From the NCBI RefSeq assembly GCF_947623445.1, contig NC_135248.1, forward strand, positions 2,914,977-2,978,976: 64,000 nt of DNA, given 5' to 3'. The notes under the pieces are model-generated. The model was not told the DNA's origin. It saw nothing but the letters and a program-made list of their open reading frames with translations, and did no database searches. Position numbers and translations under genes: made by a program. Positions 3,001 through 37,161 of this stretch are shown here, in pieces (the stretch's first letter is position 1; each line of letters starts with the position of its first letter). This DNA comes from Clavelina lepadiformis. Taxonomy: Eukaryota > Chordata > Ascidiacea > Aplousobranchia > Clavelinidae.

Positions 3001-3262
3001 AATTAACAATTTAAATGTTTACATTGAGTATTTTATTGTATCAACTGTTTAAATGATCAACTTTACACTGTTGTGTTAACTGGGTGAAAACAAATTTATT
3101 CGGCTTTCTTGGTACCATTGGTTTAATTACTCATGTCCTGACAAAAGTTCAACAGTCAAGCTTTTGTATGTTATTTTTAAACTCTGGCATTAACACATTA
3201 CAGGTACTTTAGATACTGTGTTGGTACTTTTCTTTGCACTAAATGGTTGATCTACCTGATCT
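1..3262. other. Intergenic, AT-rich, no gene recognised
   Basis: No convincing coding exon is seen on either strand; short open frames here have no recognisable motif. Two stretches (about 800-905 and 1780-2090) resemble parts of 59.7-60.5 kb and are listed as a dispersed repeat. The last 250 bases form the 5' flank of the first sulfotransferase gene, and a diverged copy of this flank recurs near 4.97-5.1 kb. Confidence 0.5.
800..2090. repeat. Dispersed repeat shared with 59.7-60.5 kb
   Basis: The block at about 805-905 (around 'tgaggcttcagtgcaggcta' and 'gccaaaatttgcg') matches 60240-60345 with scattered differences. The block at 1960-2090 ('gtttgggtctggagaaa', 'atttagagtttg', 'caattgcgcaatcagctagc') matches 60025-60110 and 60440-60465. 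Near 1770 a tRNA-like A-box ('gtggtttaatggttgg') precedes the block, so a tRNA-derived SINE-like origin is possible. Copies are old and rearranged; limits are approximate. Confidence 0.4.
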
Positions 3263-4267
3263 ATGATGAAAGTGATTTCACCAGTTCGACTTCTTGTATT
3301 TTGCATGTCAATTTCAGTATTATTTTGCATAATGGTATGGAATTATATCAGTAGTCAAACCACTTATGCTCAGCGCAGTGGTAATAATGTGAATGCGGAT
3401 GTTTATCGATTTGAAGATCCAACACCAAGCGACAGGGAATTTGTAGTAAGGCAACTGGAAGGAATTAACCGACCAGAAGACTATTTCTCAAGAATTGTTT
3501 ACAATAGGGTCGGAAAATGCGGAAGCCGATCAATGCAAGCTGTTATTTCAGTTCTTTCCAAGAAGAATAATTTCATCTTTCACCTATCGCCCATTTCTAA
3601 CGTTTCGCATCTACGGCTTTTGGACTTGAAAGAAGAAGTCAGATTAATCACTCACTTAAAACCTCCCATGCTGTATTCAAGGCATATACATTACATCAAC
3701 TTTGCCAAATTTGGAGTCCAGGCGCCAATTTATATTAACCTGATTCGTGATCCAATTGAAAGGTTCTCTTCAAGCTACCACTACAAGAGATATGGAGATG
3801 CAAGGACACCAGTTGAAAGACGCAGGCATTGGGCAGAGGGCGAAAAAGAACGAAGCATAAATGACTGCATTTTACAAAATGTAACTGAATGTTCAACTGG
3901 AAGACTTTGGTATATTGTGCCATATTTTTGTGGTCAAGAAAGCATTTGCCAACGACCGTCAACATATAGTTTACAGAGGGCCAAACAGCGTTTGCTGGAC
4001 AATTACTTAGCTGTTGGTATTTTAGAAGATTTTCAAGGTACACTGAAGATATTTGAAAAGCTAATGCCTTATCATTTCAAAGGTGCGCCAGATATTTGGC
4101 AAGATATTAGCCGTGGGACAGTAAACAATACCAGTACTGTGGGAAAAGAGAAAATACGACCTGAGGTGTATGCAATACTGAAAGAAAGAATGGCGATGGA
4201 ATATGAGTTTTACAATTTTGCTGTAAAACGTTTCTATCATGTCAAAGACCAGCTTGGCATAAAATAA
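3263..4267 (+). CDS. UST: Uronyl 2-sulfotransferase-like (UST family), copy 1
   Basis: A single-exon, 334-residue type II Golgi protein. UST transfers sulfate from PAPS to the 2-OH of uronic acid (mainly iduronate) in dermatan/chondroitin sulfate. A short cytoplasmic tail is followed by a membrane segment at about residues 8-28. The 5'-phosphosulfate loop is at 80-89 (YNRVGKCGSR, which has UST's GKCGSR rather than the PKTAS of HS2ST). His141 in SRHIHY aligns with the catalytic His of HS2ST. Arg162 and Ser170 in IRDPIERFSS match the 3'-phosphate site. Cys202/210 and Cys223/229 match the family disulfides. Length is close to the usual catalytic form, but the acidic C-terminal tail of human UST is absent. 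It begins with two Met codons; I took the first. It heads a tandem family and is clearly diverged from the two downstream copies. HS2ST is the alternative family, less likely from the loop sequence. Confidence 0.9.
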   Translation: MMKVISPVRLLVFCMSISVLFCIMVWNYISSQTTYAQRSGNNVNADVYRFEDPTPSDREFVVRQLEGINRPEDYFSRIVYNRVGKCGSRSMQAVISVLSKKNNFIFHLSPISNVSHLRLLDLKEEVRLITHLKPPMLYSRHIHYINFAKFGVQAPIYINLIRDPIERFSSSYHYKRYGDARTPVERRRHWAEGEKERSINDCILQNVTECSTGRLWYIVPYFCGQESICQRPSTYSLQRAKQRLLDNYLAVGILEDFQGTLKIFEKLMPYHFKGAPDIWQDISRGTVNNTSTVGKEKIRPEVYAILKERMAMEYEFYNFAVKRFYHVKDQLGIK

Positions 4268-6954: not shown

Positions 6955-8293
6955 CTTCCTACGATACATTCGTTACAAGGCCATCATTTTGTAAAAGTGT
7001 TTTTGCATTCATTTGAGAGAGATTTGATGTGAATTGAATACAATTTGGATGTAACACTAGCCTTGATTATAACTCTCTTTGATATATAAACATGATATGA
7101 ATCATATTGATGCTTGATTATTTATTTAACTTACAAAATTAATAATACCACCATTCATGAGATTAGTAAATGGTATTGTATAACTCAAAACTGCACGTAC
7201 CGGTAATTAATGAACGTAGGCACATTAATGTTTTAGTAAGAAATTGGTTAGCCAATGTTCTTTAAAGTGTTCAGTTGATTGTAAAGGCCTTCTAAAGTAG
7301 CACTGAGTAATGAGTAGGGGAATATCGTGGAACCTTAAAGTCATTGATATGTTTGGACATCAATATTCACAATTTCTATCACTTTTCAACTTAAAAAATT
7401 TGCTGACCGCCGTGAAAAATTTAAAAAGTGGACTAAAACCAAAATTTCTCTCACACTTTTGAAAGTCTTCGTAAAAAAACACCATTTTTACTAGATAGGT
7501 TTTTCTTTAGAAGAAACAGATGTTAAATGATCAACTTTCTATCGCCTGAAACTGATGCTTCTTGTGTCCGAAGTTGGCAAAAGGATTATAGTTGTTGCTA
7601 AATTTCTACCAAATGCTTAATGATTGGGCGTTATGTTTAATATTTAAACTTTAAACAAAAGTCTTAAATGTTGTGCAAACATTGTATTGAAGGGTTACAG
7701 ATGTTTTTTAACATTAATTGTTTATTGGGCTTTTTTCTTCGCGGTAGTAAGTATTTCGATAAAAGACGTTCCCTTTACTTCTTTTCTTCGTGTGGCGGCC
7801 TAAATTGCAACCGTTATACAACATTGTTGGAGTTCCATTACTTCCCGTACTAAGAAAGAAATTCCACTTCCAAATAACTTTCACGGAATAGAAGAAATTT
7901 AGCTCCTTTGTAACATAAACCTAACTTCCTTCCACATGCAATAGGCTACATCTTGTTAATTGTGTTCTGTTTTTGCAGCCGTCATGTCACAGTTACACGA
8001 TAGCAGTTCATGAAGAGGGTGAATGATCATTTGCCCACCAGTTGGTTTTAGTTTAGATAACAACTATTGTTGGTTTGTCAATATCATGCTGTCATTTCAT
8101 CGCAGTGCAAAGTTTTGGATACAATACTTTATATTGTTGTAGTAATATAAGATCAGCAAACAGCGAAAGCTAGTGCAGGAAGATTTAAACCTTGGGTCCT
8201 TAACTTAAATTATAAGAACATGTAAGACTCTACTCTCATTTGATTGGTCTGTACTAATGCTTTGTAAATTTTTCTTGTAAAAATTTTTGTAGG

Positions 8294-9304
8294 ATGAAGA
8301 ATTATTTTAGAACATCAAAAATGCCATTTTTAAAGTGGTCGCATATTTTTATTATATTTTTGATCACAAGTGTAGTTTTAATTGGTAATAGCTGCTTCCA
8401 TTTAAAAAAAAATCCATTCAGTTTTAGCTTTAGTGTGACTTCACATTTAGCCAAAAAAACTCCCCAGGTATCCACCAGGCTGTACCACCGCATTATCAAT
8501 GACAACTACATCCCCAACAGAATACTATACAACCGGGTGACTAAGTGTGGAAGTCGAACATTGAAGGAAATAATATCCCATCTGGAGAGGAAAAACAATT
8601 TTCACTTTTATAAGTCTCCTGTCAACAACTTAATAAGGCCACCGCCATCTGAACTGACTCGTGAGACCAAATTGATTTACAATTTATCTTTGCCATCCTT
8701 GTATACCAGACATATTCATTACATTGACTTCACAAAGTATGGCTTGGAAAATCCAACATACATAAACGTGGTACGTGATCCTATTGAACGGTTTTCCTCA
8801 CAGTTTCATTTCAAGCGCCGTTTCATTGACTTTACCAACTCGCTAAACCTTAAGCATGTTAGATGGAAAAGCTCTGAAAACAAGGAAATGAACATCAATG
8901 ACTGCATAATTAAGAACCATCTAGAATGCTCAACTAAACAGCTGTGGTACATTGTGCCTTATTTTTGTGGCCAAGATGAGATGTGTCAACACCCTTCCAA
9001 TGAAAGTTTACAGCAGGCCATTGCAAATGTGGAAAGACACTACCTCTTTGTTGGTATTCTTGAAGACTTCAAAGGAACTTTACAAGTGTTTGAAAGGTTG
9101 CTCCCAGGATATTTTGCTGGAGGAACCGAAATTGGAATGAGGTTGCAAAATGCCTTACATGAGAAAACAAAAACTCTAAAAAAGGACGCCATAACACCTA
9201 AAGGGTATGAACTTCTCAAAAGTCGAATGTCATTGGAATATAAATTTTATGACTTTATAGCTCAGCGGTTCAACGCTACCAAAAGTCTGCTAAAACTTAC
9301 GTAA
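8294..9304 (+). CDS. UST: Uronyl 2-sulfotransferase-like, copy 2
   Basis: Single-exon, 336-residue type II membrane sulfotransferase. The membrane segment lies at about residues 17-31, after a basic tail containing KNYFRTSK. The PAPS 5'-phosphosulfate loop is YNRVTKCGSR (79-88), with Thr where copy 1 has Gly. The likely catalytic His is His140 (TRHIHY). Arg161/Ser169 form the 3'-phosphate site, and the four family cysteines are Cys204/212 and Cys225/231. The start is the first ATG, placed directly after 'atttttgtagg', which looks like a splice or trans-splice acceptor. Expected role: 2-O-sulfation of uronic acid in Golgi glycosaminoglycans; acceptor specificity is not deducible. Very close to copy 3, more distant from copy 1. 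Confidence 0.9.
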   Translation: MKNYFRTSKMPFLKWSHIFIIFLITSVVLIGNSCFHLKKNPFSFSFSVTSHLAKKTPQVSTRLYHRIINDNYIPNRILYNRVTKCGSRTLKEIISHLERKNNFHFYKSPVNNLIRPPPSELTRETKLIYNLSLPSLYTRHIHYIDFTKYGLENPTYINVVRDPIERFSSQFHFKRRFIDFTNSLNLKHVRWKSSENKEMNINDCIIKNHLECSTKQLWYIVPYFCGQDEMCQHPSNESLQQAIANVERHYLFVGILEDFKGTLQVFERLLPGYFAGGTEIGMRLQNALHEKTKTLKKDAITPKGYELLKSRMSLEYKFYDFIAQRFNATKSLLKLT

Positions 9305-10714: not shown

Positions 10715-11727
10715 GTAAAGGCCTTCTAAAATAGCACTGAGTAATGAGTAGGGGAATATCGTGGAACCTTAAAGTCATTGATATGTTTGGACATCAATAT
10801 TCACAATTTCTATCACTTTTCAACTTAAAAAATTTGCTGACCGCCGTGATAAATTTAAAAAGTGGACTAAAACCAAAATTTCTCTCACACTTTTGAAAGT
10901 CTTCGTAAAAAAACACCATTTTTACTAGATAGGTTTTTTTTTTGAAAAAACAGATGTTAAATGATCAACTTTCTATAGCCTGAAACTGATGCTTCTTGTG
11001 CCCGAAGTTGGCAAAAGGATTATAGTGGTTGCTAAATTTCTACCAAATGCTTAATGATTGGGCGTTATGTTTAATATTTAAACTTTAAAATAAAAGTCTT
11101 AAATGTTGTGCAAATATTGTATCGAAGGGTTAGAGATGTTTTTTAACATTAGTTGTTTATTGGGCTTTTTCTTCGCGGTAATAAGTATTTGGATAAAAGA
11201 CGTTCCCTTTACTTCTTTTCTTCGTGTGGCGGTCTAAATTGCAACCGTTATACAACATTGTTGGAGTTCCATTACTTCCCGTACTAAGAAAGAAATTCCA
11301 CTTCCAAATAACTGTCACGGAATAGAAGAAATTTAGCTCCTTTGTAACATAAACCTAACTTCCTTCCACATGCAATAGGCTACATCTTGTTAATTGTGTT
11401 CTGTTTTTGCAGCCGTCATGTCACAGTTACACGATAGCAGTTCATGAAGAGGGTGAATGATCACTTGCCCACTAGTTGGTTTTGGTTTAGATAACAACTA
11501 TTGTTGGTTTGTCGATATCATGCTGTTGTTTCATCGCAGTGCAAAGTTTTGGATACAATACTTTATATTATTGTAGTAATATAAGATCAGCAAACAGCGA
11601 AAGCTAGTGCAGGAAGATTTAAACCTTGGGTCCTTAACTTAAATTATAAGAACACGTAAGACTCTACTCTCATTTGATTGGTCTGTACTAATGCTTTGTA
11701 AATTTTTCTTGTAAAAATTTTTGTAGG

Positions 11728-12735
11728 ATGAAGAATTATTTTAGAACATCAAAAATGCCATTTTTAAAGTGGTCGCATATTTCTATTATATTTTTGATCA
11801 CAAGTGTAGTTTTAATTGGTAATAGCTGGTTCTATTTGCCAAAAAATCCATTCAGTTTTAGCTTTAGTGTGACTTCACATTTAGCCAGAAAAACTCCCCA
11901 GGTATCCACCAGGCTGTACCACCGCATTATCAATGACAACTACATCCCCAACAGAATACTATACAACAGGGTGACTAAGTGTGGAAGTCGAACATTGGCG
12001 GAGATAATATCCCATCTGGAGTGGAAAAACAATTTCTGCTTCTATCAGTCTCCTGTCAACAACTTAAAAAGGCCACCGCCATCTGAACTGGCTCGTGAGA
12101 CCAAATTCATTTACGATTTGTGGACGCCATCCTTGTATGCCAGACATATTCATTACATTGACTTCACAAAGTATGGCTTGGAAAATCCAACATACATAAA
12201 CGTGGTACGTGATCCTATTGAACGGTTTTCCTCACAGTTTCATTACAAGCGCTTCAATGACTTTACCAACTCGCTAAACCTTGAGCATGTTAGATGGAAA
12301 AGCTCTGAAAACAAGGAAATGAACATCAATGACTGCATAATTAAGAACCATCTAGAATGCTCAACTAAACAGCTGTGGTACATTGTGCCTTATTTTTGTG
12401 GCCAAGATGAGATGTGTCAACACCCTTCCAATGAAAGTTTACAGCAGGCCATTGCAAATGTGGAAAGACACTACCTCTTTGTTGGTATTCTGGAAGACTT
12501 CAAAGGAACTTTACAAGTGTTTGAAAGGTTGCTTCCAGGATATTTTGCTGGAGGAACCGAAATTGCAATGAGGTTGCAAAATCGTTCACATGAGAAAACA
12601 AAAACTCTAAAAAAGGACGCCATAACACCTAAAGCGTATGAACTTCTCAAAAGTCGAATGTCATTGGAATACCAATTTTATGAATTTATAGCTCAGCGGT
12701 TCAACGCTACCAAAAGTCTGCTAAAACTTACGTAA
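11728..12735 (+). CDS. UST: Uronyl 2-sulfotransferase-like, copy 3
   Basis: Single-exon, 335 residues, one shorter than copy 2 at the KRRFIDF/KRFNDF position. All functional landmarks are kept: basic tail and membrane segment (about 17-31), YNRVTKCGSR loop (79-88), His140 in ARHIHY, VVRDPIERFSS, and the four cysteines. The start context ('tttttgtaggATG') is identical to copy 2. Amino-acid differences from copy 2 cluster in residues 19-38 and 91-138, while about 195-280 is unchanged, with only a couple of silent changes at DNA level. Expected to be a Golgi uronyl 2-O-sulfotransferase. The substrate may differ from copy 2, since many changes lie between the PAPS loop and the catalytic His. Confidence 0.9.
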   Translation: MKNYFRTSKMPFLKWSHISIIFLITSVVLIGNSWFYLPKNPFSFSFSVTSHLARKTPQVSTRLYHRIINDNYIPNRILYNRVTKCGSRTLAEIISHLEWKNNFCFYQSPVNNLKRPPPSELARETKFIYDLWTPSLYARHIHYIDFTKYGLENPTYINVVRDPIERFSSQFHYKRFNDFTNSLNLEHVRWKSSENKEMNINDCIIKNHLECSTKQLWYIVPYFCGQDEMCQHPSNESLQQAIANVERHYLFVGILEDFKGTLQVFERLLPGYFAGGTEIAMRLQNRSHEKTKTLKKDAITPKAYELLKSRMSLEYQFYEFIAQRFNATKSLLKLT

Positions 12736-14372: not shown

Positions 14373-14862
14373 TTATTTCCTTCTTTTGTCCACCTGACTC
14401 TGCATCAGTGAAAACACCCGCTCAACATTTGCGTTGTATGGCGCCACAGCAAAGATAAACTGGGCAACCCTTGGTAATTCTGAGTGACATTCAGCGTTTT
14501 TTGACTTTTGAAAATACCTGCACCATTTCTTATGTGTTGGCAGTGTAGCAAATTCTTCGTCACTGATGCAACATTCCATAAACGACTTCAACGACTAGAA
14601 TAAGCCAGACCCTAATGCTGCTCATCTTAAAAGGTAGTAAACAACTTACGTCATAAAGGAGTTGCACACAGTTTTGACGAGCTGAGAATGTTCGCGACCT
14701 AGAAAAAGTTGGAAAAAAGGTGGCAACCTAGAAAAACTTAGACTAAAAGACAATTAAAAAAATTCCGGACTTTTAAGCACATTTTAGCATTTCTCCCTGA
14801 CGCAGATTTGAACATTAAATTCCCTGACATGTCAGGGAAAATCCTGACGTATGGCAACCCTA
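14373..14862 (-). mobile_element. hAT transposon remnant
   Basis: On the minus strand, 14373-14591 encodes a hAT C-terminal dimerisation (hATC) signature: residues APYNANVERVFSLM near the end of a 72-residue fragment match the family pattern of small-residue/N-A-x-x-E-R-x-F-S. At 14862 going left, the minus strand starts TAGGGTTGCCATACGTCAGG, a typical hAT terminus much like that of the 13308 MITE. The second terminus was not found. It is a heavily eroded, internally deleted DNA transposon and cannot be functional. Confidence 0.55.
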
Positions 14863-18235: not shown

Positions 18236-18363
18236 ACGAAGTTAATGGACACTCGACTAAAATCTCTGAAATATAAAATCGCGGATCAACGTTAATTTAT
18301 TTTGTCCAGTTTCGGTGAAAACATCCACGCTCACACCGAAGCATGTACGTTGTACACGGTACT

Positions 18364-18541
18364 ACGACACCTTATCGAAAGACACTTTATCGAAAGACAC
18401 TTTATCGAACGACACCTGATCGAAACGACAGCTGATCGAAAGACACTTTATCGAACGACAGTTAATCGAACGACACTTTATCGAACCGACAGTTAATCAA
18501 AACGACAGTTGATCGAACGACACTTTATCGAACCGACAGTT
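18364..18541 (+). repeat. Left terminal array of MULE 1 (about 16-bp units)
   Basis: Degenerate tandem units of 15-17 bases, consensus CGACA(C/G)TTTATCGAA(A/C), in which CACTTTATCGAA and CAGTTGATCGAA variants alternate. The same array in inverted orientation closes the element (19155-19380). Array length differs between copies (this one lacks several units found in MULE 2), suggesting slippage or unequal exchange. Regularly spaced units are plausible transposase-binding sites, which is inference. Confidence 0.85.
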
Positions 18542-19154
18542 CAAGCAAGATTTTTGCGTGTTTCTCAAACATTGAAACAATGAGCCATTGTGATGTGCGG
18601 TCTTTGTAATGGTGTGCATTAATGAATTGTGATGTATATATCATAAAGTTGACGATTTATATTTTATATTTGTATCATAAAGTGTTCGATTTCGCATGGC
18701 GGCCGGCCCGCCCACATATTAATAAGATATCACAAGAATACGCACGAGAATTACTAAGTACGAGAGTAACCTAGAAACCTATGCGTCGTAGACTGATGAG
18801 ATTATTACAGGTTAGTAGAAACATCATCTGGCTTCCTGTATACATCATAATTGTAAAACTAAAGAAAGTGAATTTAGTGTAAATTAGGTATTTCTAAAAG
18901 TGACACATTTTTATAAATTCTTCTTGTTACGCCGCGCCCCCGCTGTGAAAAGAGAACGAAAAAGAATAGTTAGTCAAGTTATTGGTGCGTAAATGAGTAA
19001 TACGTTTCAATGAGGAGAGAGAGCAAAATTATATAAATATCACAATATCTCAAAAATTACAAAATCCAACTTTATCAAACAAACATGGACAGATAACTGA
19101 ACATCACAATGACCCATTGTTTCAATGTTTGAGAAACACGCAAAAATCTTGCTT

Positions 19155-19380
19155 GAACTGTCGGTTCGATAAAGTGTCGTTCGATCAACTGTCGTTTTGA
19201 TTAACTGTCGGTTCGATAAAGTGTCGTTTGATCAACTTTCGGTTCGATAAAGTGTCGTTCGATCAACTGTCGTTTCGATCAGGTGTCGTTTCGATCAGGT
19301 GTCGTTCGATTAAGTGTCTTTCGATAAAGTGTCGTTCGATTAAGTGTCGTTCGATAAAGTGTCTTTCGATAAGGTGTCGC
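19155..19380 (-). repeat. Right terminal array of MULE 1
   Basis: Inverted counterpart of the left array, running from 'gaactgtcggttcgat' to 'cgataaggtgtcg'. The inverted repeat continues inward about 50 bases beyond the array ('caagcaagatttttgcgtgt' through 'cattgaaacaatg'), so the whole terminal inverted repeat approaches 280 bases. Confidence 0.85.
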
Positions 19381-19395
19381 GTCACGGTTGTACAC

Positions 19396-19566
19396 TGCTC
19401 CATAATGGAGTTTGCTGTAAATGACGAGTGTACCGAATTAGAGACATTGTATGTCTATTGCATTTTTTCGCCATTAACTGTGCGGAGCGAAGGTTAGGAT
19501 GCTAACCGTTGTAGTTATAGCACAATAGAATAAATGCTCACGAACAGTTAACGAGCAAGAAAAAAT
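19396..19566. other. Host spacer between MULE 1 and MULE 2, duplicated at 24572-24742
   Basis: About 170 bases of non-transposon DNA from 'tgctccataatgg' to 'gagcaagaaaaaat'. An identical copy lies 5176 bases downstream. Its left edge is the target duplication of MULE 1 and its right edge that of MULE 2/3 (AGAAAAAAT). Confidence 0.85.
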
Positions 19567-20080
19567 GGTACTACGACACCTTATCGAAAGACACTTTATC
19601 GAAAGACACTTTATCGAACGACACCTGATCGAAACGACAGCTGATCGAAAGACACTTTATCGAACGACAGTTAATCGAGCCGACAGTTGATCGAACGACA
19701 CTTTATCGAAACGACAGCTGATCGAACGACACTTTATCGAACCGACAGTTAATCAAAACGACAGTTGATCGAACGACACTTTATCGAACCGACAGTTCAA
19801 GCAAGATTTTTGCGTGTTTCTCAAACATTGAAACAATGAGCCATTGTGAATTGTGATGTGCGGTCTTTGTAATCGTGTGCATTAATGAATTGTGATGTAT
19901 ATATCATAAAGTTGACGATTTATATTTTATATCTATATTTTATATTTGTATCATAAAGTGTTCGATTTCGCATGGCGGCCGGCCCGCCCACATATTAATA
20001 AGATATCACAAGAATACGCACGAGAATTACTAAGTACGAGATTGTCTGTACAGTAGACTAGACTAGTCATTATAGATACA

Positions 20081-20319
20081 AAGAGTAAGGAATTGAAGGC
20101 AAAATTTTATAGCAAGGGGCATGTCGCTGCCTGACTTTTACACAAAGTAGCTTCTTGAAAGTAGTCTCTTGACCGACAGCGCAAAATAAATGGCTTCGAT
20201 GCTTGGTAGCACGTACACATGTGAACAAATATTTTCAACAATGAAATTCACGAAAAGCAAGCTAAGATCACGCATTTCCGACGCCTATTTAGAAAATGTT
20301 CTGGTTCTTGCTTCATGAA
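20081..20319 (+). pseudogene. hAT transposase C-terminal fragment captured inside the MULE
   Basis: Just upstream of, and overlapping, the MULE transposase lies a piece unlike any MULE. An ATG at 20190 opens a 43-residue frame containing LGSTYTCEQIFSTMKFTKSK and RSRISDAYLENVLVLAS, ending at a TGA at 20317-20319. This is the hAT dimerisation signature (FGSTY-CE--FS-MK--KSK-RSR--D--L). Upstream, broken frames hold KELKAKFYS and MSLPDFYTK, which fit the segment preceding it in hAT proteins. In the nested copy a few extra bases add YPSLTDSAK before the Met, matching the hAT pattern even better. The fragment is broken by stops and frame changes. It takes the place where an N-terminal zinc-finger region would be expected in animal MULE transposases. 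Confidence 0.75.
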
Positions 20320-21492
20320 CACAGTCATCCACCAAACCCTGCACGTGTTATAGTTGCAAGAGCACAAGCCAGCATGCGAAATCGAGCAGTCAATTCAGAT
20401 GAACGTACCTCAAACATTATTCAGAGCGAAACGCAGGATATATCCTTAGCCACCGCTGGTGCTCTCCCTAAAGCAACATCATTAAAGCGGATGATACAGC
20501 GAAAGCGCGAATGTCCAGAAGGAAACGGCTTGATGGATGAACTCCGCGTGACACCGAGGGGAGAAGCCTTCGTTATCGAGGAAGACGATGAGAACGAATT
20601 CTATATGTTTGCATCTCAAAAGAATCTGGATATACTGAACAACTGCGCTAATTGGTTTTGTGACGGTACATTTGATGTTGCCCCACTTGGATACCAGCTG
20701 TACACGATACACGCGCTGGTCGATGAAAATCGCACGGTGCCACTCGTATACACCGTTACCGAGAACAAATCTGAAGCTGTGTACAATCGCATCTTTTGTT
20801 TATTGGAACAACAGCGACCAGGAATAGTCCCAGAAACCGTAACAATAGACTTTGAAATGGCAGCATATAATGCTCTTTCTTCCAGCTTCCCTCGGGCAGA
20901 AATTCTCGGCTGCCTTTTCCATTTTGGCCAATGTAGCTTCCGGAAAATTCAGGCTCTCTCTCTGCAGCGGTGGTTCAATGAAGATGCAGAGCACGCCCTT
21001 TGCATAAAATGCTTCCAGGCACTGGCATTCGTTCCGCCTGACGACGTTGTACAACGGTTCGAGGCCACGTTCAGTGACGACGATGAGCAGCACTTGTCTG
21101 AATACATTGACTATTTTGAAATTACTTGGATTGGACGATTGTGTCGCAGGAATCGTCGTCAACCTCTATTTCCTATCCGGTGTTGGAATGTTTTCCACCG
21201 GGTTCAAGATGACCTTCCACGAACGAATAATAGCATTGAAGGATGGCACAATGCGTTCAGCAAGCGTGTCTCATTATCCCATCCGACGCTTCGAAGACTC
21301 GTCAAAAAAATTAAGCAGGAACAAGGTTCCAACGAAATGTTAATTGAGCAATTGAGTGCTGGAATCGATGGCCCACCTCGGAAGAAGCGCTACGACGCTG
21401 TCAACCAACGGCTGAAGAGCATAGTTGAAAATTATGACTCAACAAATATGGACATAAAAAGTTATCTTCGAGCAATTGCACACAACTTGTAA
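20296..21492 (+). CDS. MULE (Mutator-like) DDE transposase, 398 aa
   Basis: Catalyses cut-and-paste transposition of its element family. The MULE transposase domain occupies about residues 105-345. The first Asp of the triad is Asp123 in FCDGTF, the second Asp185 in TIDFE, and the Glu is Glu315 in NNSIEGWH. The C-x-x-H insertion motif is Cys206/His209 in GCLFHF. Family hallmarks VPLVYTVTENKS, QALAFVPP, YFEITWIG and LPRTNN are all present. Residues 1-90 look like the linker found before the domain in animal MULEs; no FLYWCH or other zinc finger precedes it. The 5' end overlaps the captured hAT fragment in another frame, so an upstream exon may supply the true start. It is uninterrupted and identical to the copy at 25472, which implies recent activity or recent duplication. 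Two AATAAA sequences follow within 125 bases. Confidence 0.9.
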   Translation: MFWFLLHEHSHPPNPARVIVARAQASMRNRAVNSDERTSNIIQSETQDISLATAGALPKATSLKRMIQRKRECPEGNGLMDELRVTPRGEAFVIEEDDENEFYMFASQKNLDILNNCANWFCDGTFDVAPLGYQLYTIHALVDENRTVPLVYTVTENKSEAVYNRIFCLLEQQRPGIVPETVTIDFEMAAYNALSSSFPRAEILGCLFHFGQCSFRKIQALSLQRWFNEDAEHALCIKCFQALAFVPPDDVVQRFEATFSDDDEQHLSEYIDYFEITWIGRLCRRNRRQPLFPIRCWNVFHRVQDDLPRTNNSIEGWHNAFSKRVSLSHPTLRRLVKKIKQEQGSNEMLIEQLSAGIDGPPRKKRYDAVNQRLKSIVENYDSTNMDIKSYLRAIAHNL

Positions 21493-21536
21493 TTAAATGA
21501 ATGCGATTGAAATGTGCACTTCGTCAGTTGTCGTGC

Positions 21537-21624
21537 TTTTAACAGTGCATGTTGTCAGTTCTTTTAATAAATTGTCGTTCTTTTAACAGTGCATATCGTC
21601 AGTTGTTTCAATAAATTGTGGATC
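21537..21624 (+). repeat. 44-bp direct repeat with polyadenylation signals, 3' of the transposase
   Basis: Two adjacent 44-base copies, each starting TTTTAACAGTGCAT and each holding AATAAA (21566-21571 and 21610-21615). A partial third copy lies just upstream. The same arrangement recurs in MULE 3 at 26713-26800 and, reversed, in the nested element. The signals probably end the transposase transcript. Confidence 0.6.
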
Positions 21625-21660
21625 TTTTAACCCTATCCTAACCAGGTTCGCGAGTTTACT

Positions 21661-21668
21661 AAAAAAAC
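21661..21668. repeat. Target-site duplication of the nested MULE, left copy
   Basis: AAAAAAAC at 21661-21668 matches AAAAAAAC at 23896-23903. The uninterrupted site in MULE 3 reads 'tttactaaaaaaactagg' (around 26840). The insertion was into element sequence itself. Confidence 0.7.
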
Positions 21669-23895
21669 CGTGACCCGACACCTTATCGAAAGACACTTTA
21701 TCGAACGACACTTAATCGAACGACACTTTATCGAAAGACACTTAATCGAACGACACCTGATCGAAACGACACCTGATCGAAACGACAGTTGATCGAAAGA
21801 CACTTTATCGAACCGAAAGTTGATCAAACGACACTTTATCGAACCGACAGTTAATCAAAACGACAGTTGATCGAACGACACTTTATCGAACCGACAGTTC
21901 AAGCAAGATTTTTGCGTGTTTCTCAAACATTGAAACAATGGGTCATTGTGATGTTCAGCTATCTGTCCATGTTTGTTTGATAAAGTTAGATTTTGTAATT
22001 TTTGAGATATTGTGATATTTATATAATTTTGCTCTCTCTCCGCATTGAAACGTATTACTCATTTACGCACCAATAACTTGACTAACTATTCTTTTTCGTT
22101 CTCTTTTCACAGCGGGGGCGCGGCGTAACAAGAAGAATTTATAGAAATGTGTCACTTTTAGAAATACCTAATTTACACTAAATTCACTTTCTTTAGTTTT
22201 ACAATTATGATGTATACAGGAAGCCAGATGATGTTTCTACTAACCTGTAATAATCTCATCGTCTACGACGCATAGGTTTCTAGTAATTAACGATTGCAAA
22301 TGTGTGTGCGGGGTCGGCCACACCTAGTTTTTTAGTAAACTCGCGAGCCTGGTTAGGATAGGGTTAAAAGATCCACAATTTATTGAAACAACTGACGATA
22401 TGCACTGTTAAAAGAACGACAATTTATTAAAAGAACTGACAACATGCACTGTTAAAAGCACGACAACTGACGAAGTGCACATTTCAATCGCATTCATTTA
22501 ATTACAAGTTGTGTGCAATTGCTCGAAGATAACTTTTTATGTCCATATTTGTTGAGTCATAATTTTCAACTATGCTCTTCAGCCGTTGGTTGACAGCGTC
22601 GTAGCGCTTCTTCCCAGGTGGGCCATCGATTCCAGCACTCAATTGCTCAATTAACATTTCGTTGGAACCTTGTTCCCGCTTAATTTTTTTGACGAGTCTT
22701 CGAAGCGTCGGATGGGATAATGAGACACGCTTGCTGAACGCATTGTGCCATCCTTCAATGCTATTATTCGTTCTTGGAAGGAAGCGGAATTGGCCATTGG
22801 CCAAAATGGAAAAGGCAGCCGAGAATTTCTGCCCGAGGGAAGCTGGGAGAAAGAGCATTATATGCTGCCATTTCAAAGTCTATTGTTACGGTTTCTGGGG
22901 CTATTCCTGGTCGCTGTTGTTCCAATAAACAAAAGATGCGATTGTACACAGCTTCAGATTTGTTCTCGGTAATGGTGTATACGAGTGGCACCGTGCGATT
23001 TTCATCGACCAGCGCGTGTATCGTGTACAGCTGGTATCCAAGTGGGGCAACATCAAATGTACCGTCACAAAACCAATTAGCGCAGTTGTTCAGTATATCC
23101 AGATTCTTTTGAGATGCAAACATATAGAATTCGTTCTCATCGTCTTCCTCGATAACGAAGGCTTCTCCCCTCGGTGTATTAGCTGAGCGTGATCTTAGCT
23201 TGCTTTTCGTGAATTTCATTGTTGAAAATATTTGTTCACATGTGTACGTGCTACCAAGCATCGAAGCCATTTATTTTGCGCTGTCGGTCAAGCTGGGATA
23301 AAGACTACTTTCAAGAAGCTACTTTGTGTAAAAGTCAGGCAGCGACATGCCCCTTGCTATAAAATTTTGCCTTCAATTCCTTACTCTTTGTATCTATAAT
23401 GACTAGTCTAGTCTACTGTACAGACAATCTCGTACTTAGTAATTCTCGTGCGTATTCTTGTGATATCTTATTAATATGTGGGCGGGCCGGCCGCCATGCG
23501 AAATCGTACACTTTATGATACAAATATAAAATATAGATATAAAATATAAATCGTCAACTTTATGATATATACATCACAATTCATTAATGCACACCATTAC
23601 AAAGACCGCACATCACAATGGCTCATTGTTTCAATGTTTGAGAAACACGCAAAAATCTTGCTTGAACTGTCGGTTCGATAAAGTGTCGTTCGATCAACTG
23701 TCGTTTTGATTAACTGTCGGTTCGATAAAGTGTCGTTCGATCAGCTGTCGTTTCGATAAAGTGTCTTTCGATCAACTGTCGGCTCGATTAACTGTCGTTC
23801 GATAAAGTGTCTTTCGATCAGCTGTCGTTTCGATCAGGTGTCGTTCGATAAAGTGTCTTTCGATAAAGTGTCTTTCGATAAGGTGTCGTAGTACC
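21669..23895 (-). mobile_element. MULE transposon 4, nested in MULE 2 in inverted orientation, internally deleted
   Basis: A 2227-base relative of the same family lying backwards inside MULE 2, with terminal arrays at 21676-21899 and 23666-23888. Compared with the full elements it has lost two internal stretches. One runs from the captured hAT fragment to the Thr-Pro-Arg-Gly-Glu part of the transposase. The other lies between the GCLFHFGQ and PRTNNSIEGW parts. It therefore cannot encode a working transposase, but its ends look mobilisable in trans. It inserted after the tandem duplication, since MULE 3 lacks it. Confidence 0.88.
22502..23270 (-). pseudogene. Truncated transposase of the nested MULE
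   Basis: Two overlapping minus-strand frames. The upstream one (22764-23270, 168 residues) starts with the hAT-like MASMLGSTYTCEQIFSTMKF segment. An internal deletion joins that segment directly to TPRGEAFVIEEDD, and the frame runs through DGTF and TIDFE to GCLFHFGQ. The second frame (22502-22876) carries PRTNNSIEGWH to the normal C-terminus. The centre of the domain is missing and the frame changes at the junction, so catalysis is not expected. The accidental hAT-MULE fusion is noteworthy. Confidence 0.85.
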
Positions 23896-24571
23896 AAAAA
23901 AACTAGGTGTGGCCAACCCCGCACACACATTTGCAATCGTTAATTACTAGAAACCTATGCGTCGTGGACTGATGAGATTATTACAGGTTAGTAGAAACAT
24001 CATCTGGCTTCCTGTATACATCATAATTGTAAAACTAAAGAAAGTGAATTTAGTGTAAATTAGGTATTTCTAAAAGTGACACATTTTTATAAATTCTTCT
24101 TGTTACGCCGCGCCCCCGCTGTGAAAAGAGAACGAAAAAGAATAGTTAGTCAAGTTATTGGTGCGTAAATGAGTAATACGTTTCAATGAGGAGAGAGAGC
24201 AAAATTATATAAATATCACAATATCTCAAAAATTACAAAATCCAACTTTATCAAACAAACATGGACAGATAACTGAACATCACAATGACCCATTGTTTCA
24301 ATGTTTGAGAAACACGCAAAAATCTTGCTTGAACTGTCGGTTCGATAAAGTGTCGTTCGATCAACTGTCGTTTTGATTAACTGTCGGTTCGATAAAGTGT
24401 CGTTTGATCAACTTTCGGTTCGATAAAGTGTCGTTCGATCAACTGTCGTTTCGATCAGGTGTCGTTTCGATCAGGTGTCGTTCGATTAAGTGTCTTTCGA
24501 TAAAGTGTCGTTCGATTAAGTGTCGTTCGATAAAGTGTCTTTCGATAAGGTGTCGCGTCACGGTTGTACAC

Positions 24572-24742
24572 TGCTCCATAATGGAGTTTGCTGTAAATGA
24601 CGAGTGTACCGAATTAGAGACATTGTATGTCTATTGCATTTTTTCGCCATTAACTGTGCGGAGCGAAGGTTAGGATGCTAACCGTTGTAGTTATAGCACA
24701 ATAGAATAAATGCTCACGAACAGTTAACGAGCAAGAAAAAAT
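24572..24742. other. Second copy of the host spacer
   Basis: Identical to 19396-19566, bounded on the left by GTTGTACAC (24563-24571) and on the right by AGAAAAAAT (24734-24742). It is the duplicated host tract that proves the 5176-base offset is a tandem duplication, not two independent insertions. Confidence 0.85.
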
Positions 24743-25256
24743 GGTACTACGACACCTTATCGAAAGACACTTTATCGAAAGACACTTTATCGAACGACAC
24801 CTGATCGAAACGACAGCTGATCGAAAGACACTTTATCGAACGACAGTTAATCGAGCCGACAGTTGATCGAACGACACTTTATCGAAACGACAGCTGATCG
24901 AACGACACTTTATCGAACCGACAGTTAATCAAAACGACAGTTGATCGAACGACACTTTATCGAACCGACAGTTCAAGCAAGATTTTTGCGTGTTTCTCAA
25001 ACATTGAAACAATGAGCCATTGTGAATTGTGATGTGCGGTCTTTGTAATCGTGTGCATTAATGAATTGTGATGTATATATCATAAAGTTGACGATTTATA
25101 TTTTATATCTATATTTTATATTTGTATCATAAAGTGTTCGATTTCGCATGGCGGCCGGCCCGCCCACATATTAATAAGATATCACAAGAATACGCACGAG
25201 AATTACTAAGTACGAGATTGTCTGTACAGTAGACTAGACTAGTCATTATAGATACA

Positions 25257-25495
25257 AAGAGTAAGGAATTGAAGGCAAAATTTTATAGCAAGGGGCATGT
25301 CGCTGCCTGACTTTTACACAAAGTAGCTTCTTGAAAGTAGTCTCTTGACCGACAGCGCAAAATAAATGGCTTCGATGCTTGGTAGCACGTACACATGTGA
25401 ACAAATATTTTCAACAATGAAATTCACGAAAAGCAAGCTAAGATCACGCATTTCCGACGCCTATTTAGAAAATGTTCTGGTTCTTGCTTCATGAA
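25257..25495 (+). pseudogene. hAT transposase C-terminal fragment in MULE 3
   Basis: Same captured segment as in MULE 2: ATG at 25366, LGSTYTCEQIFSTMKF and RSRISDAYLENVLVLAS, TGA at 25493-25495. Its presence in every element that retains this region shows that capture preceded amplification of the family at this locus. Confidence 0.75.
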
Positions 25496-26668
25496 CACAG
25501 TCATCCACCAAACCCTGCACGTGTTATAGTTGCAAGAGCACAAGCCAGCATGCGAAATCGAGCAGTCAATTCAGATGAACGTACCTCAAACATTATTCAG
25601 AGCGAAACGCAGGATATATCCTTAGCCACCGCTGGTGCTCTCCCTAAAGCAACATCATTAAAGCGGATGATACAGCGAAAGCGCGAATGTCCAGAAGGAA
25701 ACGGCTTGATGGATGAACTCCGCGTGACACCGAGGGGAGAAGCCTTCGTTATCGAGGAAGACGATGAGAACGAATTCTATATGTTTGCATCTCAAAAGAA
25801 TCTGGATATACTGAACAACTGCGCTAATTGGTTTTGTGACGGTACATTTGATGTTGCCCCACTTGGATACCAGCTGTACACGATACACGCGCTGGTCGAT
25901 GAAAATCGCACGGTGCCACTCGTATACACCGTTACCGAGAACAAATCTGAAGCTGTGTACAATCGCATCTTTTGTTTATTGGAACAACAGCGACCAGGAA
26001 TAGTCCCAGAAACCGTAACAATAGACTTTGAAATGGCAGCATATAATGCTCTTTCTTCCAGCTTCCCTCGGGCAGAAATTCTCGGCTGCCTTTTCCATTT
26101 TGGCCAATGTAGCTTCCGGAAAATTCAGGCTCTCTCTCTGCAGCGGTGGTTCAATGAAGATGCAGAGCACGCCCTTTGCATAAAATGCTTCCAGGCACTG
26201 GCATTCGTTCCGCCTGACGACGTTGTACAACGGTTCGAGGCCACGTTCAGTGACGACGATGAGCAGCACTTGTCTGAATACATTGACTATTTTGAAATTA
26301 CTTGGATTGGACGATTGTGTCGCAGGAATCGTCGTCAACCTCTATTTCCTATCCGGTGTTGGAATGTTTTCCACCGGGTTCAAGATGACCTTCCACGAAC
26401 GAATAATAGCATTGAAGGATGGCACAATGCGTTCAGCAAGCGTGTCTCATTATCCCATCCGACGCTTCGAAGACTCGTCAAAAAAATTAAGCAGGAACAA
26501 GGTTCCAACGAAATGTTAATTGAGCAATTGAGTGCTGGAATCGATGGCCCACCTCGGAAGAAGCGCTACGACGCTGTCAACCAACGGCTGAAGAGCATAG
26601 TTGAAAATTATGACTCAACAAATATGGACATAAAAAGTTATCTTCGAGCAATTGCACACAACTTGTAA
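25472..26668 (+). CDS. MULE (Mutator-like) DDE transposase, second copy, 398 aa
   Basis: Residue-for-residue identical to the product at 20296-21492, with Asp123, Asp185 and Glu315 as the catalytic triad and the Cys206/His209 motif. It lies in the only uninterrupted element of the cluster, so it is the best candidate source of transposase for the defective copies. Identity with the upstream copy follows from the tandem duplication, which must be recent. The start is assigned to the first Met of the open frame; the product may be extended by splicing. Confidence 0.9.
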   Translation: MFWFLLHEHSHPPNPARVIVARAQASMRNRAVNSDERTSNIIQSETQDISLATAGALPKATSLKRMIQRKRECPEGNGLMDELRVTPRGEAFVIEEDDENEFYMFASQKNLDILNNCANWFCDGTFDVAPLGYQLYTIHALVDENRTVPLVYTVTENKSEAVYNRIFCLLEQQRPGIVPETVTIDFEMAAYNALSSSFPRAEILGCLFHFGQCSFRKIQALSLQRWFNEDAEHALCIKCFQALAFVPPDDVVQRFEATFSDDDEQHLSEYIDYFEITWIGRLCRRNRRQPLFPIRCWNVFHRVQDDLPRTNNSIEGWHNAFSKRVSLSHPTLRRLVKKIKQEQGSNEMLIEQLSAGIDGPPRKKRYDAVNQRLKSIVENYDSTNMDIKSYLRAIAHNL

Positions 26669-27271
26669 TTAAATGAATGCGATTGAAATGTGCACTTCGT
26701 CAGTTGTCGTGCTTTTAACAGTGCATGTTGTCAGTTCTTTTAATAAATTGTCGTTCTTTTAACAGTGCATATCGTCAGTTGTTTCAATAAATTGTGGATC
26801 TTTTAACCCTATCCTAACCAGGTTCGCGAGTTTACTAAAAAAACTAGGTGTGGCCAACCCCGCACACACATTTGCAATCGTTAATTACTAGAAACCTATG
26901 CGTCGTGGACTGATGAGATTATTACAGGTTAGTAGAAACATCATCTGGCTTCCTGTATACATCATAATTGTAAAACTAAAGAAAGTGAATTTAGTGTAAA
27001 TTAGGTATTTCTAAAAGTGACACATTTCTATAAATTCTTCTTGTTACGCCGCGCCCCCGCTGTGAAAAGAGAACGAAAAAGAATAGTTAGTCAAGTTATT
27101 GGTGCGTAAATGAGTAATACGCTTCAATGCGGAGAGAGAGCAAAATTATATAAATATCACAATATCTCAAAAATTACAAAATCCAACTTTATCAAACAAA
27201 CATGGACAGATAACTGAACATCACAATGACCCATTGTTTCAATGTTTGAGAAACACGCAAAAATCTTGCTT

Positions 27272-27481
27272 GAACTGTCGGTTCGATAAAGTGTCGTTTT
27301 GATTAACTGTCGGTTCGATAAAGTGTCGTTTGATCAACTTTCGGTTCGATAAAGTGTCGTTCGATCAACTGTCGTTTCGATCAGGTGTCGTTTCGATCAG
27401 GTGTCGTTCGATTAAGTGTCTTTCGATAAAGTGTCGTTCGATTAAGTGTCGTTCGATAAAGTGTCTTTCGATAAGGTGTCG
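27272..27481 (-). repeat. Right terminal array of MULE 3
   Basis: About 14 degenerate units of 15-17 bases from 'gaactgtcggttcgataaag' to 'cgataaggtgtcg', inverted relative to the left array. One repeated unit pair present in MULE 1 and 2 ('cgttcgatcaactgt') is missing near the inner edge. Confidence 0.85.
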
Positions 27482-27497
27482 CGTCACGAGAAAAAAT

Positions 27498-33866: not shown

Positions 33867-36800
33867 ATGGTCAATACGTCAAGATTCTTTGTATCCCAAA
33901 CAGCAGAGGAAGCGTTCTTCAAAGGCGGTAAGTGAAGTTATTTCTGATACTGTTCCGCAGTTAAAGTGTTGGTATACAGAACTTTGCTTTGTTATTGATT
34001 TTGTCATTTGAATTATGCATAGACAATGGTGTATCGTGGTGGTCTATAGTAATTCGCGACAACTGTAAAAAACAGCAACTGATCGAGATGATTTAGTTTA
34101 TCTCCCGATTTCGGACTCAAATAATTAATGCTCGTTCTAAACTTAACGCATGACGTAGCAACACGCTTAGCTTAATATACGTTTGGGGTAGAAAGTTGCA
34201 AGGCCTAATGGTGCGGAAATGCGGCATTATGATGTTCTGTGCTAGTGTCGGTAACAAGACTTATCACAGCATCGTGAACTAAACCAAGCTAACTTGCGTC
34301 GAACTTTGGTCTATGTCATACTACTTGTATTGTTTCGCGCATATGTACGGTTGCTTATGTTTTCCGTCATATATTTAGTGGCGTCTAAAAATTACGTCGA
34401 ACTTGCATCCCATGGTGACGTATGGCTTATTTTTGGATGGTTATAGGAATACAATGGGCTTGCTAGTGTGTCTTATGACACACGCACAGTGTATTGATTA
34501 CAAAGCTTAGGCCATCAGGCGTTTGTTCTATTGGAAAATTTGAAACAGTTTTGCCAAACTTAAAAACGTGGGTATTACCGGCAGTCACATAATATCGCTT
34601 GGTTTTATCATTTGATATTTACAAGGGTGTGACGTTGTAACCGATTATGTGATTTGTCACGTGTCATCTGCGAAAGGAGGAACTGGAATTGCGTAGGAGA
34701 ACGCGTAACATTCGCTGGTCATAGCGGCAAGAAAAAAGCGGAGAGATTGGTTAGGCTTAATTTTGAAACCTATGACCACCGGTAGTTGTGAATAGCAGTC
34801 ACGGGAGATGATTTATATACTGGTGGTGGAAAATATACGGCGCCATTTTTCGTGTGACTAGGTGGCGTTAGGCCAAGCTGTTATCTTATGTATTATGACG
34901 TTGATTGACCGACCTTTTTTCTTGTTGACGGTAGTGGATGGTATATGTACAATTAACTGTTCATTTTCATTTCAGAACCGCATCAGCACAGCCACCTGAC
35001 TGATTCAAATAGTTTTCTTTGTGATCAAAGCAACAAGCAACCTAGCGCGCCAACTTCAGAACAACAGAAGAGCGACGCAATGTTCCTCCAATATCCACCT
35101 AACATGACGCATGCGCAACACGCAAGCGTGCATCACCAGTCATCATGTGTTAATACCGGGGGCGTGAACAATATAAACCTACAGCTTTTCGCAAATCAAA
35201 CCGGCTACACAGTGTCAGAAGAAAGAGCTAGTAGGTTCGGGAAAGCTTCGTTCATTGACGAAGACCAAGTGGCGTTTCCTGAGGTCTTGAGGGCAGGTCC
35301 CCCGAAAATGGATCGCCAGTACTCGATAAACACTGTTTTAGAGGTGATCGAGAATCACAAAATCAGCGACTTTTCGAAGTCATCGACAGCCTTTTCGCCC
35401 AAGGCAGGAAAAGCAGAGATGATGGGTTGTGCCGCCAGCCAACCAATAGATATCAGAAGAAATCCGAATGCATCTGACATGCAAAGAATGATCTCCGAGG
35501 AGCAGTTTGACAGGACAACTCTCGGTGCTCCGGTTTCTGATACCTACAGCCAGTACGGTTGTTCGCCAGCATACAGCAACATCTCCACGAGTCCCGGTCC
35601 CGAACCGTTTCCGTTCGAGCAATATCAACACGACGCAGCGTTCAATTTGTCGCCTGCGTTGTGTGCAGTTAGCCCTGCTGGTCAAAATGCAGAGGCCAAC
35701 GTTTTCTTTAATGGTAAGTACCCAGTGCTGCAATGAGTTTGTTAAAGTAGCTTTTAGTCGTGATGTTATTGTTTATACCGGGGAAGTGCCACTTCTAAGC
35801 GGGGATTTTTCGCTTTTGCCGAGGGTGCGCGTATAATGTCTAAAATCGTTTAATTTCCAGTTGAATAAACAAAATCACTTTTGATTAAATTGTCAAGTCA
35901 AGGGCTGGTATCGATTTTCCGCCATTTTAAGTCGCCAGTTTTATTGTTCCCCAACAGAGCTGCGCAAGCCCATTATACCCTTCTCCTTAACTAGCGCAGG
36001 AGTTGTGCACGTGACTTGGCGGTACCTGTTTGGACTCGCCCACGCAAAAACGCATACGCTAACAAAAACAGGTGCCACGGCCCACTTCTAAACGCAACAG
36101 TTGGGGCCTCTAATTGTTTGTTTCTGCTAAACCTATGCCCGTATCATGTGTCAAGCCAGCGACCTGTTACAAACGAAGGTGTTTTGTTTTGCGTATTTAA
36201 AGACCAGCGCAAGTCTGGGCTTGCTCAGTTGCATTTCGTCGGATCCAAGATATTGGCAATTCATTACACAAAAGAAATAAAACCGCTACAGAGGTAGCGG
36301 GCACTTAGAAAATATCGATTTTTTTCGAATATTCGATATAGCGCTATTTCCGAACTTAGCGCGTATCGTAATCCATACTTGGCCCGAATTTTTTTCCTTA
36401 TTTTATTTGTATTGTATTTTTCGAGCTTAATCCATTTACAGCTTTTTAAAGGAATTCTTTGTCTTAATTTTGTAGAATTGGAGTTCAAGTCGCTCGATTA
36501 TCCAGTTTTCTCCCCGGAAGAGTCAAATGCCACCTCACCAGCATATCAACAGCGAAATCAACAATACGAATTTGACTCATACATGCAGTCTCCTGGCAAC
36601 GCGTGCTTTCCTTGTCCAGATTACAGTCCCCAGAACACATTTAAGGAGTCACAATCTTGCCCCAACTTCACAGGACAGACGCACAATTTCGGCGGGGCCC
36701 ATTCCCTTCCCAACAGTGGCCGCATCAGAAGCGTCCAAGCCGACAGCGTAACATCGCCCACCACAAGCGCAATCACTGCGCGAGCACACACAACTTCCAC

Positions 36801-37161
36801 GTCCAGTTTATCGAACGTTGACATTGACGGATTGAGCATCGGAACGAATTCTCCATTTTCTGTGGAGTTGGAGGAGGTCAATAGTCCGGGCTCCAAGGAG
36901 GAAATCAACCAAGCGTTCCAGGATCGGGATCGGTTTTTGACCGAACAAGACCGGCTCGATTGCCGCAGAATCCGCAACAATCGCGCGTGCCGAGCTTCTC
37001 GACAACGGCGTAAGATGCGCAAGGAACAACGCGAGCGTCAACAAGTATATTTGGAAGATCAAAACAAAGGACTGAAGGCGAAAATTCGACAATTGGAAAA
37101 AGAGTGTAAGGAGGCTAAGGCGGAAGTTCTTCGGCGCGGTCGCAGCCACAGCCTCGTCTAG
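33867..37161 (+). CDS. bZIP transcription factor A, C/EBP-PAR-like (three exons, 494 aa)
   Basis: Sequence-specific nuclear factor by domain. Exon 1 is 33867-33927 (first ATG after an in-frame stop; GGCG|gtaagt). Exon 2 is 34976-35713 (tttcag|AA to AATG|gtaagt). Exon 3 is 36476-37161 (tttgtag|AA to stop). Both introns are phase 1, giving KG-E-PHQ and FFN-E-LEF joins. The bZIP lies at the C-terminus: the basic region RRIRNNRACRASRQRRKMRK fits the NN-x-A-x-x-x-SR signature of C/EBP and PAR proteins rather than the Fos/Jun pattern. A short zipper (YLEDQNKGLKAKIRQLEKE) follows, and only about 10 residues after that. The rest is Ser/Pro/Gln-rich and probably disordered, with a motif RQYSINTVLEV shared with gene B. 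A Cys stands in the basic region at a position usually held by Ala or Val. I cannot assign an orthologue. Confidence 0.8.

Follow-up and report, generated by a model that had tools for sequence, protein, structure and literature searches.

The hAT-derived DNA ahead of a MULE transposase gene in Clavelina is very probably the remnant of an internally deleted, non-autonomous hAT transposon that integrated in the MULE leader, had its ends eroded and then spread as cargo. The DNA analyzed, called the window, is a stretch of 64,000 nucleotides (C9:2914977–2978976) within a 209-Mb genome of 95 contigs. An earlier note on this stretch had read the arrangement as a Pack-MULE-type capture of a hAT transposase C-terminus. 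That reading was not borne out: stand-alone hAT elements share the internal junction of the segment, the hAT 3′ TIR survives in one of the MULE copies (L068), and hAT-free MULE copies exist.

The window and its MULE family

The elements and frames of the window are collected in Table 1. MULE copy 1 is interrupted by the nested copy, and its right end adjoins GTTGTACAC, which is also the TSD around the small element. Of the 110-bp hAT 5′ piece, the small element retains the first 66 bp. No difference separates copies 1 and 2 across the first 2102 bases of the element. Bases 18771–21668 repeat at 23947–26844 (spacing 5176) with near identity, and the nested MULE is present in the first unit only. 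The tandem duplication is consistent with an unequal exchange in which the right arm of the small element paired with that of the MULE, the nested copy having inserted into copy 1 afterwards. A TSD pair printed for 18358–24562 is an artifact of the tandem duplication and was not counted.

Table 1. Positions of MULE-derived and hAT-derived features in the window.
Feature	Position	Strand	Details	Basis
Small non-autonomous MULE	18358–19386	+	TSD GTTGTACAC	Parts map, TSD scan
MULE copy 1, FLYWCH-less deletion derivative	19567–24562	+		Termini and TSD scan, parts map, sequence
hAT 5′-derived piece	19976–20085	+	Equals L027 1707–1816; matches hAT L061 217–258 and 399–456	
hAT 3′-derived piece	20086–20316	+	Ends at deletion junction with MULE coding region	
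42-codon frame with hAT C-terminal signature, then TGA	20190–20318	+	62 codons in undeleted copies	
MULE transposase frame (PF10551)	20293–21492	+	D123/D185/E315; no FLYWCH found	
Nested 2.23-kb deletion derivative, same MULE family as copy 1	21669–23895	-	TSD AAAAAAAC	
168-residue fusion frame	22764–23270	-	31 hAT residues in frame with MULE residues	
MULE copy 2	24743–27488	+	TSD AGAAAAAAT	TSD scan
hAT C-terminal frame of copy 2	25366–25494	+		

The 398-residue protein of the MULE frame has the DDE triad at the positions given earlier (Asp123, Asp185 and Glu315). The first codons of the frame, MFWFLLH with the ATG included, are hAT DNA read out of frame. The in-frame fusion described for the nested copy is present, and its 168-residue frame stops before the catalytic Glu. 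The residues YPSLTDSAK were also found, as described, upstream in loci of the nested-copy class. A domain scan of the window copies found no FLYWCH zinc finger, and an Rfam scan of the window gave no match at gathering scores.

A search of the genome with the PF10551 profile returned at least 141 matches (150 of 192 candidates scored). Many belong to this MULE family, and the longest class consists of stop-to-stop frames of ~519 residues. L027 is a complete MULE of 3359 bp (TSD CTTAACACT) and L026 is a full-length MULE of 3378 bp (TSD TTTTTCTTG); both TSDs are 9 bp. The inverted ends of L027 match over 257 bp at 91%, forming long TIRs, and subterminal tandem repeats in the window are spaced 15 bp. 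The full-length L003 protein scores 50.3 bits for FLYWCH and 51.3 bits for MULE. On its domains, FLYWCH finger, TSDs and TIRs, the family appears to be Phantom/Muta-like.

In full-length copies the hAT DNA precedes the FLYWCH frame and has a separate reading frame that closes at a stop of its own. The window copies are without L027 bases 2057–2663 (607 bp), a stretch that includes the FLYWCH finger. Because full-length copies carry the finger and the hAT DNA together, the finger was deleted in the window copies and not replaced. The earlier note was correct that the window copy has no zinc finger; the idea that the hAT piece stands in its place is wrong.

Exact 8–9-bp TSD pairs were found for three window elements and for 22 of the 72 fetched loci scanned; the remaining loci are hATs, have sequence that ends before the element does, belong to other families, or have no pair. 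The FLYWCH-less class has seven distinct TSDs among window copy 2 and L009–L016, and the in-frame-fusion class has six among the window nested copy and L017–L021, so both classes moved as units. The MULE ends enclose the hAT segment, which travels as part of the element, as the earlier note had proposed. Full-length MULE copies would mobilize the other copies in trans.

Two further arrangements were seen within the family. The minus strand of L002 at 928–2226, in an element of 2758 bp with TSD ATGGTTTTG, has ~8 hAT residues joined in frame to the second part of FLYWCH. Six FLYWCH-less copies lie within ~40 kb on one strand at C2:11879229–11919433 (L012–L014, L035–L040). The three of these copies for which both ends were retrieved have the same TSD, GGTGCCAAA, so the group looks like a local tandem array.

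Several long frames elsewhere in the window look animal-like by eye. Three similar frames at 3260–4267, 8258–9304 and 11692–12735 resemble Golgi sulfotransferases by eye; the second and third belong to a tandem duplication with a spacing of ~3.4 kb. Frames 36298–37161 and 49443–49904 have putative bZIP basic regions, also judged by eye. A 73-residue minus-strand frame at 14373–14594 resembles by eye the C-terminus of another hAT family.

Identity of the hAT segment and its stand-alone relatives

The 42-residue frame at 20190–20315 reads MASMLGSTYTCEQIFSTMKFTKSKLRSRISDAYLENVLVLAS. On its own it matches Pfam Dimer_Tnp_hAT weakly (E = 0.025; 14.8 bits, cut-off 21.4), and the longer 62-residue version in L027 scores 14.1 bits, again below the cut-off. 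All matches in a Pfam scan of the 62-residue frame are sub-threshold, with DUF6559 (14.6 bits, cut-off 27) slightly above Dimer_Tnp_hAT, and a PDB search with this frame gave nothing meaningful (best E = 0.64). The separate profile searches suggested earlier thus divide, in that the MULE frame matches PF10551 (E = 2.5e-13) and the hAT frame alone stays under its threshold. Scores below the cut-off do not settle the identity of the fragment; its genomic relatives do. The hAT DNA, measured in full-length L027, is 91–92% identical over ~420 bp to the 3′ part of four of four fetched hAT loci (L059–L062). The proteins of two of these loci, L059 and L061, reach the Dimer_Tnp_hAT cut-off of 21.4 (25.6 and 21.4 bits), so the hAT identity of the segment is not a chance resemblance. 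These results confirm the earlier placement of hAT C-terminal DNA directly before the MULE frame.

The hAT-derived DNA ahead of this MULE frame spans 19976–20316, more than the earlier note had recognized, and consists of two separate hAT parts. The MULE-borne segment aligns to a short 5′ part of the hAT element and to the ~420 bp near its 3′ end, and the middle is absent. With everything between the two parts missing, the segment is an internally deleted hAT and not a domain; the boundary 20085/20086 is the internal-deletion junction. A captured hAT exon or domain was considered and rejected, as the two hAT parts are joined at a junction common to stand-alone elements.

When the genome was searched with the 62-residue frame, the 150 candidates scored out of 682 included many copies that are 80–92% identical, some in longer open frames. 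L059, L061 and L062 are hAT elements of ~2.3 kb, and L060 is a shorter derivative. The hAT TIR is CAGGGGTCGGCAACC, and the TSDs read by eye are ACCTAGAG (L059), ACCTAAGG (L061) and ACATATAC (L060); L062 is without a 3′ end. Five of nine hAT loci have an exact 8-bp TSD (L059, L060, L061, L065 and L067), and all five TSDs have a central TA (nnnTAnnn). The TSD of L064 agrees at 6 of 8 positions, L066 has no match, and the 3′ end was not found in L062 and L063. In the available text of PMC3517528, the nnnTAnnn TSD marks Buster hATs, and the donor resembles that group in TSD pattern.

The junction pattern occurs at 199 places in the genome with three or fewer mismatches, versus 0 for the reversed control; individual positions were listed for 100 of the 199, with the list for C1–C3 complete. 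Six places are exact, and the five that were fetched and read (L063–L067) are stand-alone hAT elements. All five have the hAT 5′ TIR and four have the 3′ TIR, which was not found in L063; none matches the non-hAT parts of the MULE. Exact 8-bp TSDs flank L065 (GCGTAGAT) and L067 (ATTTACAG).

The junction lies upstream of 23 of the 25 MULE-family places counted on C1–C3. The count used 25 of the 28 PF10551 rows on these contigs (E up to 5.5e-11); the three left out have other profile spans (C2:24875865, which is L001 and a different protein, C3:7291104 and C2:5667550). The two places without the junction are C1:24138832 (L022), which has a 75-bp hAT remnant, and C3:14747729 (L071), where no hAT was found. 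The protein, family and DNA searches of the genome score the best candidates only, so the counts are lower bounds.

The L060 subfamily of hAT elements bears ~144 bp matching the MULE right arm (reverse strand ~1925–2067). Ten of 40 scored matches, L060 included, extend to the hAT-side end of the query. Exchange between hAT and MULE transposons may have run both ways.

Insertion, capture and the question of function

L068, the sole junction place with a single mismatch, is a MULE copy in which both the FLYWCH and the MULE region are present. Its hAT is complete through the last base of the 3′ TIR, which is followed by AATTATAGACTAAGCC and the MULE leader. The leader runs uninterrupted across the insertion point in L072 and L073, which have no hAT and are empty sites; L071 also lacks hAT, and that copy is rearranged. 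The hAT segment is thus not part of every MULE copy, a question that the earlier note had raised. The 8-mer AATTATAG, which follows the L068 3′ TIR, shares only 5 of 8 positions with TGATATAG of the empty site, and the joined L068 flanks compared with the two empty sites barely beat the best of 200 shuffles (156 versus 155; 173.5 versus 169). Matches to the leader query begin at position 46 or later in 27 of 31 cases, a pattern that a deletion of the hAT 3′ TIR together with the neighboring leader, in the lineage that multiplied, would produce. Its hAT state and donor-like letters, as distinct from a tree, suggest that L068 is older than the other MULE copies.

L068 has two further features on its reverse strand. 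The inverted hAT 5′ copy at ~350–397 forms a palindrome where the hAT 5′ end is expected. A second hAT-like small element lies within the first hAT at ~583–898, with ATCTAGTA on both sides by eye.

The hAT ends were scored in 61 MULE-borne junction segments, which include some places counted more than once and five with less than 700 bp of upstream sequence. The 5′ TIR is present in 0 of 61 and the 3′ TIR in one (L068). An inverted copy of hAT 5′ sequence, GATTTCGCATGGCGG, is present in 61 of 61 MULE-borne segments versus 0 of 5 stand-alone elements, a distribution that fits a single origin of the MULE-borne segments; one origin is well supported. With the 5′ TIR in none of the 61, no pair of 8-bp duplications can be read inside the MULE. 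The earlier note had set against its own reading the case of a separate hAT insertion with its own 8-bp duplication. This is largely what was found, with the exception of a matching pair inside the MULE.

The proposed history starts with an internally deleted, non-autonomous hAT (8-bp TSD, nnnTAnnn) that would have inserted into the MULE 5′ leader, upstream of the FLYWCH-MULE transposase gene; hAT transposase presumably made the insertion. A short palindrome would then have replaced the hAT 5′ TIR, and a ~108-bp deletion would have removed the 3′ TIR in the lineage that went on to multiply, leaving the remnant immobile; this order of the two end losses is the probable one. The MULE transposase would have copied the whole unit with the hAT remnant as cargo. 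Further deletions would account for two classes, one (the window copies) with the remnant joined directly to MULE coding sequence without FLYWCH, and the other (the nested copy) with the remnant fused in frame to MULE residues.

Alternatively, part of a hAT MITE could have been copied into the MULE when a gap was repaired or the template switched, a Pack-MULE-like capture with no hAT transposition. The missing hAT 5′ end and the inverted piece that takes its place in all 61 MULE-borne segments are a possible trace of template switching, and no TSD pair is visible around the MULE-borne hAT. However, capture must explain how the L068 3′ TIR is intact to its last base with the MULE leader resuming directly, the leader runs across the insertion point in both empty sites, and mobile donors are at hand in the stand-alone elements that share the junction. 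Capture is therefore considered unlikely. The cargo is also not the non-TE (host) sequence of a Pack-MULE; it is a hAT with mobile copies of its own.

The hAT frame might have a use within the MULE, and 34 open hAT frames were collected, of which 26 are MULE-borne. Since only open frames qualified for this set, it is silent on how often the frame is broken. In-frame fusions occur in the nested class and also in L002. A functional MULE part in the form of a chimeric transposase, an exon or a peptide is nevertheless so improbable as to be nearly negligible. In full-length copies the hAT frame stops before the FLYWCH frame, stops and a 1-bp frame break relative to the donors lie just upstream of the hAT frame, and the 168-residue fusion stops short of the catalytic Glu. 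Using 62-codon variants, with L068 left out of the MULE-borne set, replacement changes outpace silent ones, as rates, in 11 of 21 pairs among seven MULE-borne variants versus 6 of 28 pairs among eight stand-alone hAT variants, a weak comparison based on few changes. Among the MULE-borne copies the 62-codon frame thus gives no clear indication of being under selection, with low power because changes are few.

A benefit to the host MULE, through a leader exon or promoter or through a hAT dimerization peptide that interferes with the donor hAT, is very improbable. The 199 junction places, few of which are stand-alone hATs, far exceed the hAT-free MULEs found (two clean empty sites and one rearranged copy). 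A candidate leader intron was guessed by eye from GTAAGT to TTTTAG; with this intron the remnant would fall in a leader exon, and it may be transcribed there. Nothing supports a working function or peptide for the hAT remnant, and the evidence points to neutral cargo.

Comparison with known transposons and significance

The available text on Aedes aegypti Muta1 and Muta5 describes Phantom-group MULEs of ~3.2–3.5 kb with TSDs of 8–9 bp, long TIRs of short subterminal tandem repeats and many non-autonomous derivatives; of 14 Aedes families, 13 have a predicted FLYWCH finger (PMC5225508, PMC6446971). The Clavelina family is alike in size, TSD, tandem-repeat TIRs, FLYWCH and non-autonomous derivatives. 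The hAT remnant in the leader is a feature of the Clavelina MULE that the available text does not mention for Muta1 or Muta5 (PMC5225508, PMC6446971). Among the titles and abstract openings of the open-license literature, no report of a hAT remnant carried by this MULE family was found. The donor side has a counterpart in Mar, a Buster-group hAT MITE that, in the source as available, has internally deleted copies and 8-bp nnnTAnnn TSDs like those found here (PMC3517528).

Rice offers a nested element that multiplied along with its host MULE. According to the available part of that report, 107 similar coding-MULEs share a nested MITE, Os0548, at one site, with 40 copies intact and 67 partial (PMC3903597). 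In the rice plant the nested element is a Tourist-like MITE (PMC3903597), whereas the cargo here is a hAT element in an animal genome. Pack-TIR cargo in animals is defined as non-TE sequence in the accessible text of PMC8277862, and the survey in that text lists no Pack-MULE in 100 animal reference genomes, yet calls Drosophila Ssk-FB4 a Pack-MULE. The Clavelina elements resemble Pack-MULEs and Pack-TIRs such as Ssk-FB4, as that source presents them, in having foreign DNA between MULE ends that is multiplied by transposition; the Pack-TIR definition (PMC8277862) does not cover their cargo, a second transposon whose arrival was most likely by its own insertion.

If the remnant had a function, a transposon of one superfamily would be using the domain of another, which would be unusual. 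The nested hAT as MULE cargo is most likely an ordinary kind of event, with the rice MULEs and their MITE as precedent, and it is well resolved here. The family gives a series of states, from the stand-alone donor through the nest with one TIR, the eroded remnant and the in-frame fusion to the empty site. Degraded copies alone can make a nested transposon resemble cross-superfamily domain capture.
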